64,000 bases of DNA, from positions 558,001 through 622,000 of the forward strand of contig NZ_LT900021.1 in assembly GCF_900198835.1 (NCBI RefSeq), read 5' to 3'. The stretch's first letter is position 1. Every line of letters begins with the position of its first letter. The position numbers and the translations under genes were made by a program. The notes below the pieces were generated by a model. The model was not told where the DNA came from. It did not search any database and was given only the letters and a program-made list of their open reading frames with translations. Below, piece after piece: positions 51,160-56,218 of this stretch. This DNA is from Thermococcus henrietii. Lineage in GTDB: Archaea > Methanobacteriota_B > Thermococci > Thermococcales > Thermococcaceae.

Positions 51160-52542
51160 CTAAAGCTTCCCTATCTCCCTCAGCCTCTCGAAGTCTCCCA
51201 AATCCCATACAAGCCAGCCTTCTTTCTTCAGCTCCTCTTTCCCCTCAACGTTCTTAGCCACCAGCCCGTAGCTCTTTCTCCAGCCCTCAAGCCCCACTAA
51301 CTCTGCTTTCCTCTCCAAGTCCTTCAAAATTCCCCTTGCTTCCCTCTCACTCAAATCCTTCCACTTAACCTCAACAAATAGGGCCTTCCTCTCCCTCTCG
51401 TTCAAAGCGACCAAATCAATCTCCTCTCCCTTCCGCCACCACCTGCCGATTTTCGTAAACTTAAACGGCAACTTTCCAGCCCTGTTCAGCTCCATGAGGA
51501 ACTGTCTGGCAATGTCCTCAAAGACCCACCCGAGGTAGCGGTTGAAGTTCCTCTCAAAGTGCTCCAGCGCTTCGTTAGGTATTCCAATCTCTATCCCCTC
51601 CTTGAACGGGTAAACGAACGTGTAGTAAAAGGCGAAGTAGTTGTCCCGTATGAAATACCGCGAGTTCCTTGCCCGTTTCTTCGGCTTTTCCGTAACGGGA
51701 GCTTCCCTGCCAACGATGCCAAGGTTCATGAGTATGCTGAGGTAGCGCGTCAGCTTCGAGCCGTCGAGCCCCGTCATGTTTCTCAGCTCGTTGAACGAGC
51801 GGTGGCCGTAGCTTATCGCCTCCAGAATCGTGTTGTAGGTGCTCAGGTCCCGGAGCTCGTATCGGAGCAGGTATTCCGCTTCATCGTAGAGGAAGCCCCT
51901 CCCGAAGAACTCCTCCCGCGCGTTCTCCTCGGGCGAGAGTGACGGGTCGAGGCGAAGCAGGTACTCGGGGATTCCATCCACCATGCCGTAGACCTTGACA
52001 AGGTCTTCGAGGCTGTAGTTCGGAAAGAACTCGCCGATATGGCAGAACTTCAGGGGCTCGACCTTGAGTGAGAGAGTTCTCCTCCCGTAGATTGGACTGC
52101 CGTAGGAAACGAGCTCCTCCATCATCGAAACGCTCGAACCGCAGAGGACGATGCTCCCGCTTCCCCTGAAGTCAAGGTGCTCCTGAAGGACGCCGAGGAT
52201 TCTGGGGTGGTTTTTGACCAGAATCTGGAATTCGTCAAAGATTACCACGACGTCCTCCGGCAGTCTCTCGAAGAACTCATCAAATGAGCGTACTGGATGC
52301 CTCAGCAGTAATTCATCGCCTGTGAGTGAGAAAAGCTTTGCGTTGAGAGTTCTCAGGGTCTCACTAACTTCTTCCTCCTTGCAGAGGTGGTAGAGGGTGT
52401 TAAATCCCTTGGAAGCCTCGACGAGGAGTCTCGTCTTTCCAACCCTTCTCCTGCCGTAGACGATAATCAGCGCGCCCTTTTTGAAGGCTTTCCGTAGGGT
52501 CGTTAACTCCTCCTTCCTGTCAACGAACTTTTGTGTAATCAT
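51160..52542 (-). CDS. Archaeal AAA ATPase with DUF234 C-terminal domain, copy 1
   Basis: 460 residues. Walker A VYGRRRVGKTRLLVEA near residue 30, Walker B VVIFDEFQILV near 100, a winged-helix middle (GHRSFNELRNMTGLDGSKLTRYLSILMNLGIV), then DUF234. In the last part EEIDLVALNERERKALFVEVKW has the Asp-x-Glu-x-Lys order of PD-(D/E)XK nucleases. Proteins of this class multiply in archaeal genomes and are thought to be mobile-element or defence linked; function unproven. A perfect palindrome lies between its TATA box and start. Paralogue at 52589. Confidence 0.83.
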   Translation of the reverse strand: MITQKFVDRKEELTTLRKAFKKGALIIVYGRRRVGKTRLLVEASKGFNTLYHLCKEEEVSETLRTLNAKLFSLTGDELLLRHPVRSFDEFFERLPEDVVVIFDEFQILVKNHPRILGVLQEHLDFRGSGSIVLCGSSVSMMEELVSYGSPIYGRRTLSLKVEPLKFCHIGEFFPNYSLEDLVKVYGMVDGIPEYLLRLDPSLSPEENAREEFFGRGFLYDEAEYLLRYELRDLSTYNTILEAISYGHRSFNELRNMTGLDGSKLTRYLSILMNLGIVGREAPVTEKPKKRARNSRYFIRDNYFAFYYTFVYPFKEGIEIGIPNEALEHFERNFNRYLGWVFEDIARQFLMELNRAGKLPFKFTKIGRWWRKGEEIDLVALNERERKALFVEVKWKDLSEREARGILKDLERKAELVGLEGWRKSYGLVAKNVEGKEELKKEGWLVWDLGDFERLREIGKL

Positions 52543-52548
52543 GATTAT

Positions 52549-52562
52549 ATAATCGCGATTAT
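52549..52562. promoter_or_regulatory. 14-bp perfect palindrome at the start of the AAA-DUF234 copy 1 gene
   Basis: ATAATCGCGATTAT, its own reverse complement. It lies seven bases before the ATG at 52542. A TATA-like CTTTTAAG (about 52567-52574) is just upstream, so the palindrome sits between TATA box and expected transcription start, the classical position of an archaeal repressor site. Confidence 0.65.
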
Positions 52563-52588
52563 GCTACTTAAAAGTTTTCATTTTCCAA

Positions 52589-53932
52589 TTATGGAAACTC
52601 TCCCAAGTCCCAGACGAGCCAGCCTTCTTTCGTCAGCTCCTCTTTTCCATTAACCTTCTTAGCAACCAGCCCATAGAACCTTTCCCAATCCTCAAGCCCC
52701 ACAAACTCTGCCTTCCTCGCCAGGTCCTTCAAAACTCCCCTTGCTTCCCTCTCACTCAAATCCTTCCACTTCACCTCGACGAAAAGCGTCCGCTTTTCTC
52801 TCTCGTTCAAAGCAACTAAATCAATCTCCTCGCCCTTCCGCCACCAGCGGCCGATTTTTGTAAAGCGGAACGGCAGTTTTCCAGCCCTGTTCAGCTCGAT
52901 GAGGAACTGCCTGGCAACATCCTCGAAGGTTCTCCCCACGTAGGTGTTGAAGGCGTCCCAGTCCATCTCAAAGGTTCCGAGCTCTATCTTCCCCCTGTTC
53001 GGCTTAACAAACCTGAACCAGAAGGCGAAGAAGTTGTCGTTGAGGTAGTAGCGCGCTTTTTTGCTCCTCTCCGGCTCGGTAACGGGAACCTCGCGCCTCA
53101 CGAGTTCGAGGGAGATTAGGGTTCTCAGGTACTTCGGCATGTCCTTGGCCTCGATTCCCGCGAAGCTGGCAATCTCGCTGACCCTGTGCCTCCCGAGGGC
53201 AATCGCCTCAAGAATCAGGTAGTGGCGGTGGACGTCGCCGAGTTCCTCCCTCAAAATGAACTCTGGCTCCTCGTAGAGGATTGACGTCGTCGAAAAGGCC
53301 ACCTTGAGGAGCTCCTCCTCGAAGTTTCTCCCCTCAAAGAGCCTGAAGTACATGGGAACGCCGCCGGTAACAGAGTATATCTTCACGACGGTCTCAATCG
53401 GTGAGTTTTTGAAGTACTCGCGGACGTGGAAGAAGTTGAGGGGCTTAAGCTTGAGCTGTGCCGTTCTCCTGCCGTAGAGGGGGTTGCCGTACTCCATAAG
53501 TCCCTCCATCAGGCCGATTATCGACCCGCTCAGAATGAGGAAGAACCCCTCGTCAAGGATTTCGTCTATGACGTGCTGGAAAACCGCTGGGGCGTTCTTA
53601 TTGGTAAGCAAAAGGTACGAAAACTCGTCTATAACGACGACGAGCCTTTCGGGAGCCTTGAGCTTCAGGAGTTCAAAGGCCTCCCTGAAGTCCCTGACTT
53701 CAACCTTTGGCAGGTCAAGAACCTCGGCGGCTTCCCTGTAAAACCTCCTCGCGTTCGACTCCAGCCCGTCCCTGTCGGCTAAGAAGTAAACTGCATTTTT
53801 CCCTTCAATGAACCTTTTCACGAGCTCGGTCTTCCCAACGCGCCTGCGCCCGTAGAGAATCAAGACCTCCTTTTTTCCTGAGCGGTAGAGTGAGTCAAGG
53901 AACTTCAGCTCATCTTTTCGGTTGACAAACAT
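52589..53932 (-). CDS. Archaeal AAA ATPase with DUF234 C-terminal domain, copy 2
   Basis: 447 residues. Walker A LYGRRRVGKTELVKRF near residue 28, Walker B LVVVIDEFSYLL near 99, winged-helix middle, DUF234 end with the same EEIDLVALNE..FVEVKW nuclease-like order. Against copy 1 the ATPase halves differ clearly but the last 115 residues are nearly the same (FTKIGRWWRKGEEIDLVALN, VEVKWKDLSEREARG, EGWLVWDLG), so gene conversion may have acted there. ATG 53932 follows GGTGAAGATA. Confidence 0.83.
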   Translation of the reverse strand: MFVNRKDELKFLDSLYRSGKKEVLILYGRRRVGKTELVKRFIEGKNAVYFLADRDGLESNARRFYREAAEVLDLPKVEVRDFREAFELLKLKAPERLVVVIDEFSYLLLTNKNAPAVFQHVIDEILDEGFFLILSGSIIGLMEGLMEYGNPLYGRRTAQLKLKPLNFFHVREYFKNSPIETVVKIYSVTGGVPMYFRLFEGRNFEEELLKVAFSTTSILYEEPEFILREELGDVHRHYLILEAIALGRHRVSEIASFAGIEAKDMPKYLRTLISLELVRREVPVTEPERSKKARYYLNDNFFAFWFRFVKPNRGKIELGTFEMDWDAFNTYVGRTFEDVARQFLIELNRAGKLPFRFTKIGRWWRKGEEIDLVALNEREKRTLFVEVKWKDLSEREARGVLKDLARKAEFVGLEDWERFYGLVAKKVNGKEELTKEGWLVWDLGEFP

Positions 53933-53941
53933 TATCTTCAC

Positions 53942-53965
53942 CAGGATAATCTTGGGCAGGATAAT
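53942..53965 (-). promoter_or_regulatory. Direct repeats upstream of the copy 2 AAA gene
   Basis: CAGGATAAT on the plus strand at 53942-53950 and again at 53957-53965, a 15-base period. A TATA-like GCTTAAATTATT follows at about 53965-53976. The repeats therefore lie over the expected transcription start, the position equal to the palindrome of copy 1, but the sequence is different. Confidence 0.5.
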
Positions 53966-55056: not shown

Positions 55057-56190
55057 TCATCTCTTCTCAATTTCTGCGGTACTCAGGTACTTGGCCGCCT
55101 CCCGATACAGCTCATTAACGAACTCGTAGGTTACGTTGGCTCGATTCAGCTCGTTTTTCTTTAGGACGCCGAGTTCCTCAGTGAGCTGTTCCAGAACCTC
55201 GGAGAGGGCTGGCTCGGACAGTCTGCTAACGGCCTTCAGTTCACTCCACCTCTTCGGGCCCTCTGAGAGGGACTTTAGGAGCTTTATAGTCTTGTAAGGC
55301 TCAGTTCTCGTTGAAACGTAATTCATTAGCTCCTTCTTTGCCTTTAGGACCGCTTCATCTCTTACAAGGCGCTTTGCACGCTCGTGAGGTTCTCCCCTGC
55401 ATCTCTTGTAGCCGTAGAGGGTGAGCCAGCCGGGAAGCGTGCCGAGTGTCATTATCGCGTCGGCAATCTCAGAGTGCCCGTATTCTATCCCGCATTTCTC
55501 AAAGCCCTTTAACAGGTACTCCTCCGCAGTTTTAACGGGCCATGGGCTAAGAACCAGCTGCTCTGGGGGTCTGCCGAACATCGCCTCTTTCTTCCCTGCT
55601 GTAAACAGGGCCTTAAGAACCCCTGAGTATGAACCCGTAAAGATTATCCTCAAATCGGGCCTTTCGTTGTAGATTTCCCACAAACTCCTTAGGAGAATGT
55701 CTTTTCTGTTCCTCACTTCCTGTATCTCATCGAGGATAATAACGGTGTCTGGGGGCAGTGAGTTCACAGCCGACACGAAGTTCCTAACGGCACTCCTTCC
55801 CCGCTCAAAGTCCACGTTGAATTGAATTCCGGTCTTCAGTATGCCTCCAGGGTCAGAAATATAAACGCCCAAACTAATACTTTTCAGCCTCCTTTGGGAT
55901 TTCATGGCCTTAAACGCGGTTTCTATGCTATCCACCACCTTGCGAGAAAATTCTCCAAAGCTACCGCAACTTGCAACGTTTATGTAAATGCCCATTGAGT
56001 TTTTATCTTGTACATACCTCCTGACCGCAGACTTGGCGAGGCTCGTTTTACCCACCATTCTCGGGCCAAGAACCGCGACCCACACACCATCGTGGAGATA
56101 GGAGAGAAGTTTTTCAAGCTCTTTGTTCCTACCGAACAGGTTATCGTCCCTTGGTTTGGGCGTGAAAAATATCTCTCTACCTCTTCCCAC
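55057..56190 (-). CDS. Archaeal AAA ATPase with winged-helix C-terminus
   Basis: 377 residues. Walker A VAVLGPRMVGKTSLAKSAV near residue 40, Walker B TVIILDEIQEV near 150, then sensor-like LRIIFTGSYSGVLKAL. The last 90 residues form a winged-helix unit (PKRWSELKAVSRLSEPALSEVLEQLTEELGVLKK). Related to, but not the same as, the DUF234 pair; no nuclease-like end seen. There is no ATG: GTG 56190 behind AGGTGGGTTGT, or GTG 56199, inside a long palindrome. Role unknown. Confidence 0.78.
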   Translation of the reverse strand: MGRGREIFFTPKPRDDNLFGRNKELEKLLSYLHDGVWVAVLGPRMVGKTSLAKSAVRRYVQDKNSMGIYINVASCGSFGEFSRKVVDSIETAFKAMKSQRRLKSISLGVYISDPGGILKTGIQFNVDFERGRSAVRNFVSAVNSLPPDTVIILDEIQEVRNRKDILLRSLWEIYNERPDLRIIFTGSYSGVLKALFTAGKKEAMFGRPPEQLVLSPWPVKTAEEYLLKGFEKCGIEYGHSEIADAIMTLGTLPGWLTLYGYKRCRGEPHERAKRLVRDEAVLKAKKELMNYVSTRTEPYKTIKLLKSLSEGPKRWSELKAVSRLSEPALSEVLEQLTEELGVLKKNELNRANVTYEFVNELYREAAKYLSTAEIEKR

Positions 56191-56192
56191 AC

Positions 56193-56218
56193 AACCCACC
56201 TAAGTACTTAGGTGGGTT
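56193..56218. promoter_or_regulatory. 26-bp perfect palindrome over the start of an AAA ATPase gene
   Basis: AACCCACC, then TAAGTACTTA, then GGTGGGTT: every base is matched by its partner. A TATA-like CTTTTAAG (about 56226-56233) is 25 bases away, which puts the transcription start at the palindrome's centre. Its inner arm also supplies the AGGTG ribosome binding site. It may act as an operator, an RNA hairpin hiding the site, or both. Confidence 0.75.

Follow-up and report, generated by a model that had tools for sequence, protein, structure and literature searches.

The fusion of an AAA+ ATPase to HTH and RecB nuclease domains has been listed as arCOG03166 by Makarova et al. 2014 (PMC4158269), with the annotation 'Likely involved in defense (or some plasmid gene)'; regulation, operators and palindromes are not described in the sections of that work bearing on arCOG03166. 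The mycobacterial ATPase IniR, which has an SSO1545-like domain, binds a promoter and thereby acts as a regulator (PMC5760070). It differs from the protein described here in its other C-terminal domains (MalT- and SdiA-like) and in that it induces the iniBAC operon (PMC5760070); the terms 'palindrom', 'inverted repeat' and 'autoregulat' are absent from the text of that paper. Archaeal Orc1/Cdc6 proteins (2qby, 2v1u) likewise consist of AAA+ plus winged helix and have been seen bound to DNA, but to origin DNA rather than to their own promoter. Autoregulated type II antitoxins and archaeal self-repressors of the TrmB or Lrp kind sit on an inverted repeat over their own promoter; in contrast to these, the putative binder here carries an AAA+ switch and a nuclease-like domain, and the spelling of its site is specific to the subfamily. 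In the open-licence literature that we searched there was no account of operators before ATPase_2-DUF234 genes and no tested ligand or function for the family; DUF234 as a whole word occurred in one paper, on Campylobacter hypothetical proteins. The ATPase_2-DUF234 architecture and the guess at defence are already known: what appears to be new are the putative operators before its genes.

The gene at issue (Table 1; hereafter the focal gene) lies in a 64-kb window, by which we mean the whole stretch of DNA analysed. Its domain order is that of arCOG03166, membership being inferred from this architecture. Six bases separate its ATG (52542-52540) from a perfect 14-bp palindrome, ATAATCGCGATTAT, which is abutted on the start-codon side by a second, imperfect palindrome, GTAATCATGATTAT. 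Together the two form one inverted repeat with four half-sites: an inner pair, GATTAT/ATAATC, and an outer pair, TAATC/GATTA. The repeat extends from just below the TATA-like box to past the start codon, and the order along the gene is GAAAA, TTTTAA, CATAATCGCGATTATATAATC, ATG, ATTACACAAAAG. We refer to it as the operator, a function that is inferred. An initial annotation, made from the sequence alone, had reported a perfect palindrome between TATA box and start of an AAA-DUF234 gene, seven bases before the start codon. The palindrome and its setting are confirmed, with six bases between it and the start codon; the 14-mer is, however, only half of an operator of ∼34 bp.

Table 1. Features of the operator, its gene and the neighbouring genes (positions in the window)
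Feature	Positions	Strand	Details
ATPase_2 (AAA+)-winged helix-DUF234 gene (focal gene)	51160-52542	minus	460 aa, starts with ATG; putative binder of the operator before it
Full inverted repeat (putative operator), ∼34 bp	52532-52565	minus	centre 52548.5, 12/17 pairs
Imperfect palindrome GTAATCATGATTAT	52535-52548	.	downstream half, overlaps the start codon, abuts ATAATCGCGATTAT
Perfect 14-bp palindrome ATAATCGCGATTAT	52549-52562	.	upstream half of the putative operator
TATA-like TTTTAA	52568-52573	minus	A-rich BRE-like GAAAA just upstream
Adjacent ATPase_2-DUF234 paralogue	52589-53941	minus	likely ATG at 53932
Paralogue's own, differently spelled inverted repeat	53931-53965	minus	centre 53948, 13/17 pairs
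ATPase_2 gene without DUF234	55057-56199	minus	profile match
Perfect 26-bp palindrome AACCCACCTAAGTACTTAGGTGGGTT	56193-56218	.	covers the start of 55057-56199, below a TATA-like CTTTTAAG box

Taken alone the 14-bp palindrome is unremarkable: the window contains six perfect palindromes of exactly this length, against a mean of 3.26 expected from first-order Markov simulations. What lies beyond chance is the context, namely the abutting second copy, the joint repeat, and homologues with a like arrangement in other letters. Transcription in Thermococcus begins ∼23 bp below TATA (PMC4247193), or 27 from the middle of TATA (PMC5316973); by this spacing rule we infer that transcription of the focal gene starts at ∼52542-52546 and that its mRNA is leaderless, or nearly so. 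The operator would therefore cover the transcription start.

The 46-bp gap between the focal gene and its paralogue (52543-52588) contains the TATA-like box and most of the operator, which suggests a separate promoter for the second gene of the pair despite its place immediately behind the first. Identity between the paralogues is 49% over the whole alignment but 74% in the C-terminal DUF234 part, a pattern suggestive of gene conversion or an exchange of domains.

The initial annotation had proposed a search for the palindrome before homologous genes and had named lack of conservation there as its refutation. We surveyed DUF234 genes of Thermococcales together with a small number from other archaea, scoring each upstream region by its best inverted repeat about a single centre, with 17 positions per side. 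This score was chosen after viewing the first 104 sequences; a tandem-palindrome score (two centres 13-18 bp apart) had separated weakly (10.1 against 9.1 in shuffles), because many subfamilies have asymmetric halves, and was dropped. Of 213 matches, 27 (short or without the N-terminal motif) and a further 18 (identical upstream) were removed, leaving 168; two re-admitted under a looser motif gave 170, and one with a misread start (L216) was later dropped, giving 169. In the set of 170 the region was anchored to the conserved F codon rather than to the start codon.

Symmetry recurs throughout the family. The first 104 non-redundant upstream regions had a mean score of 12.61, compared with 9.21 for dinucleotide shuffles, in 100 repeats of which no set mean exceeded 9.375; across our sets the means for DUF234 genes were 12.6-12.7 out of 17 against 9.2-9.4 for dinucleotide-preserving shuffles and TATA-bearing controls. 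In the non-redundant set of 170, 165 regions reached at least 11 (13.6% of shuffles did so), 133 at least 12 (2.7%) and 93 at least 13 (0.5%). Among loci fetched after the score had been fixed (L201 and later) 42 of 47 reached 12, as did only three of 113 TATA-bearing ORFs of other families, one of which is another AAA ATPase. The 59 other genes of the window averaged 9.12; the single high one (15) is itself an ATPase_2 relative. The 170 regions are not mutually independent; when one random member was drawn from each of 23 clusters (65% identity) 73% still reached 12. There are also exceptions. Thirty-seven of the 170 score below 12 and five below 11 (L045, L123, L169, L072 and the misread L216), and in several genes, for example L071, L073, L119, L138, L201, L202, L207, L228 and L235, the best centre is off the position found in relatives.

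The proposed check is thus passed and the refutation is not borne out, with one qualification: the letters are not identical before all homologues. What is conserved is the symmetry, the position and, within a subfamily, the spelling.

The anatomy of the site was profiled from genes scoring at least 13 and cross-checked with centres taken from other members of the same cluster. Pairing is high at distances 1-5 from the centre (the inner half-sites), low at ∼6-8, and high again at 9-17 (the outer half-sites), with about ten bases, one helical turn, from inner to outer half-site. The position is also regular: in the 133 genes scoring at least 12 the centre falls 22-25.5 bp after the TATA start in 88, at 31-32 bp in 21 and elsewhere in three, the remaining 21 having no TATA match, and in 127 of 169 genes the nearest in-frame start is within 18 bp of the centre.

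The letters, in contrast, change with the protein. Along the protein tree the outer half-site is specific to each clade (for instance TAATC, TACTC, TTCGA, TTCAC, GATAAT or TTATA), the inner half-site is mostly GATTAT- or GAGTAT-like across clades, and operator spelling tracks the protein clade from one genome or genus to another. When 19 cluster representatives, each the best-scoring of its cluster, are compared with one another, left-arm identity over positions 13-16 amounts to 0.29-0.34, whereas pairing within each stands at 0.84-1.0; in a cross-check on 161 genes that borrowed the centre from fellow cluster members, pairing was 0.71-0.91 over positions 12-16 and fell to 0.30-0.39 in the loop at 6-8. 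Outer-arm letters therefore differ almost freely between protein clusters while the symmetry stays. Compensatory change exceeded column shuffles in four of nine clades (DYHM, MFINR, ITQ and IRK2, the last three including members with an off-register centre) and did not do so in PIT, IRK1, SEL, MILTS and KIMF. Among arm mismatches GT/TG numbered 63 and AC/CA 65; the lack of a GT/TG excess favours recognition as DNA rather than as RNA.

Up to 19 matches to the ATPase_2-DUF234 family occur in one Thermococcales genome. The genome that carries the window (2.16 Mb, one contig) has eight DUF234 genes, all of which score 12-16 out of 17 (the site of L037/L181 is unclear by eye). At up to three mismatches the four-half-site pattern of the focal gene is found in this genome at the gene itself and at 280792-280817 alone, and the operators of two other paralogues occur at one place each. 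The three full operators examined in this one genome are thus each confined to the gene they precede, apart from a decayed relative in one case. This privacy does not extend to the single 14-mer, ATAATCNNGATTAT.

The second place (operator 280791-280818; L021 1259-1528) precedes a decayed DUF234 sister gene, in which an operator of the MLREF subfamily (as in L248, L161 and L250) and the first codons are kept and the body is deleted; the remaining C-terminal DUF234 fragment is 65-71% identical to that subfamily. At up to two mismatches ATAATCNNGATTAT has 135 places per strand in the genome; the reversed pattern has 20, but it contains stop codons, which makes it a biased control.

The dyad is not confined to genes with DUF234. 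In the same genome six of eight ATPase_2 genes without this domain score 12-15, among them the one in the window (Table 1), and the other two over the profile cut-off (L191 and L192) show no dyad; up to three possible starts were tried for each of these genes, which slightly favours high values. Five PF01637 matches below the cut-off gave 8-9 in four cases and 12 in L197, a DUF4143-type ATPase. That six of eight genes without DUF234 carry the dyad indicates that the site accompanies the ATPase/winged-helix part and not the nuclease-like domain. By eye, differently laid out short inverted repeats surround TATA in DUF4143 (AAA_14) genes of this genome (L289, L290, L292-L295 and L299); of 13 DUF4143 loci, 12 could be scored in the 34-bp test and gave 9-13, with two at 12 or more, which establishes nothing.

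A further 30 loci were taken from Archaeoglobaceae, Thermoplasmatota, ANME-2, Desulfurococcales and Thermoproteota. Four matches were excluded because they lack the N-terminal motif and five loci yielded no row, leaving 21 scored upstream regions: 14 reached 12, and 13 had an individual shuffle p≤0.05. Six of the 21 (L258, L262, L263, L264, L267 and L284) repeat, by their upstream letters, genes of the 170; among those not already in that set 10 of 15 had p≤0.05. Some centres are displaced upstream relative to those of Thermococcus; no dyad is seen in L267 or L269.

The encoded protein matches PF01637 (3.2e-21, 76.6 bits, cut-off 33.2) and PF03008 (5.8e-36, 123.4 bits, cut-off 22.5). Walker A (G30-T37) and Walker B (D103 E104) are intact: G30, R31-R33, G35, K36 and both Walker B residues are invariant in 28 sequences. 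An AlphaFold2 model built with 28 sequences (pLDDT 92.1) predicts an AAA+-type core, a winged helix (helices 233-244, 250-257 and 261-273; strands 277-280 and 295-298) and a C-terminal alpha-beta domain. The initial annotation's winged-helix middle domain is thereby supported, as a prediction. The closest folds to residues 1-311 are the archaeal ATPase_2-type structures PABY2304 (2qen; Z 22.5, rmsd 3.1, 294 aligned) and SSO1545 (2fna; Z 20.9, rmsd 3.5, 290 aligned), both 350-residue chains that end with the winged-helix part; the DUF234 part of our protein is unaligned. Next come plant NLRs, CED-4 and Orc proteins (RPP1, Z 15.8, rmsd 4.2; CED-4, Z 15.1, rmsd 5.1; Orc 1w5t, Z 14.9, rmsd 3.7); the origin-bound Orc1/Cdc6 structures introduced above give Z 14.1 and 12.6 with rmsd 7.0 and 7.9.

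Modelled alone (pLDDT 91.2), the C-terminal domain resembles PD-(D/E)XK nucleases: AF1548 (Z 10.0, rmsd 2.7, 105 aligned), the Pyrococcus repair endonuclease 2vld (Z 9.1, rmsd 3.7, 105 aligned), and Cdn1, Can2 and Card1 (Z 7.7-9.4). Foldseek alone returned no match for this domain at E≤0.001, the best being 2vld at 2.1e-3. A D...ExK motif is present, with D376 and K393 invariant and E391 nearly so in 28 sequences. The model thus predicts a PD-(D/E)XK-like core fold with its motif, on a match that is moderate; DNA cleavage would be an inference from it. Among the families of PADLOC-DB 2.0.0 the protein matches the candidate defence families PDC-S27 (3.6e-33) and PDC-S01 (1.5e-9), and mad8 merely at 0.0075, in a 2023 library that does not exclude later systems. 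PHROGs gave no family at 0.001 for either DUF234 protein of the window, and NCBIfam just a weak ORF80-family match, of 17.9 bits where the cut-off is 95, in the winged helix.

Does the winged helix read the site? Residues 257-270, which lie in the recognition helix and immediately before it, make up 14 of 419 protein columns and contain five of the 15 whose changes best accompany those of the inner half-site (hypergeometric 4.8e-5), and residues 261, 265, 266, 269 and 270 are in the top 25 by mutual information with the inner base. The test rests on only six changes of half-site on the tree, and the residue range was picked after the list had been seen. A comparison of domain distance with operator distance singled out no domain (ATPase 0.26, wHTH 0.18, DUF234 0.28, C-terminus 0.16); the operator distance is crude because spacing differs.

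On these grounds we consider it likely that the palindrome forms one half of a private operator through which the protein, by means of its winged helix, represses its own gene; binding and repression are inferred, in the absence of binding, footprint or expression data. Other readings were weighed. One is that the gene family is controlled in trans, by one or more separate host transcription factors whose operators the repeats would be. A promoter-covering position suits any repressor, the inner half-site GA[T/G]TAT is common to many subfamilies, and single 14-mers are frequent in the genome (135 per strand against 20 for the reversed control). Against this, the roughly ten outer spellings (counted by eye in 19 representatives) would need as many regulators, the three full operators have no other genomic target save the decayed sister gene, and operators track the protein clade across genomes and genera; we regard trans-acting factors as unlikely. 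Less credible still is that the repeats are recognition or protection sites of a nuclease (for self-cleavage, homing or self-versus-invader marking), with repression secondary. The resemblance of DUF234 to PD-(D/E)XK nucleases, with D376, E391 and K393 kept, and the match to PDC-S27 speak for it, but the dyad also occurs at six of eight ATPase_2 genes of the genome without DUF234, the full pattern of the focal gene has no exact match in IMG/VR viral contigs, and the position is tied to TATA.

Action at the level of RNA, by a 5′-end hairpin that controls translation, would fit the overlap or abutment of repeat and start codon in many genes (127 of 169 within 18 bp of the centre). We hold it to be more improbable still: a transcription start ∼23 bp below TATA (PMC4247193) would leave the upstream arm untranscribed, and the mismatches show no G-U excess (63 against 65). 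Chance symmetry of AT-rich promoters can draw on the commonness of single 14-bp palindromes in the window and on the weak separation by the first, tandem-palindrome score. It is all but excluded by the gap between DUF234 genes (12.6-12.7) and shuffles or TATA-bearing controls (9.2-9.4), and is contradicted also by symmetry that is kept while letters change between clusters.

Under autorepression, two (or four) protomers of the AAA+-winged-helix protein would bind the operator, perhaps such that recognition helix 261-273 contacts one half-site while the other is met by the wing or the AAA+ core. This division is by analogy with archaeal Orc1, which contacts DNA bipartitely, by its winged helix and an AAA+ element. 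Binding would block the loading or escape of TFB/RNA polymerase, such that little protein might suffice to shut off its own gene, and the nuclease-bearing, NLR/ORC-like ATPase would be kept scarce until a signal, perhaps nucleotide state or an invader, releases it. The initial annotation had seen in the palindrome the placement of a dimeric repressor site within the TATA-to-start interval, and had suggested that the AAA-DUF234 protein could regulate itself. The position held, repression remaining an inference; self-regulation is supported by the symmetry and position of the sites before homologues, the predicted winged helix and the private full sites, with binding likewise inferred.

A bolder, less likely reading is possible: that in an expanded archaeal family of NLR/ORC-like AAA+ nucleases the winged helix reads DNA sequence-specifically, that subfamilies park on private operators over their own start sites, and that the conformational switch arming the nuclease would also release it. 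In eukaryotic NLRs the winged helix packs against the nucleotide pocket. If the bolder reading is true, sensing and derepression would be one event. The operators would give each family member a defined DNA target for assays of binding, nucleotide-dependence and nuclease activity, and the many protein-operator pairs would form a natural data set on how winged-helix specificity changes between paralogues that must not cross-talk.
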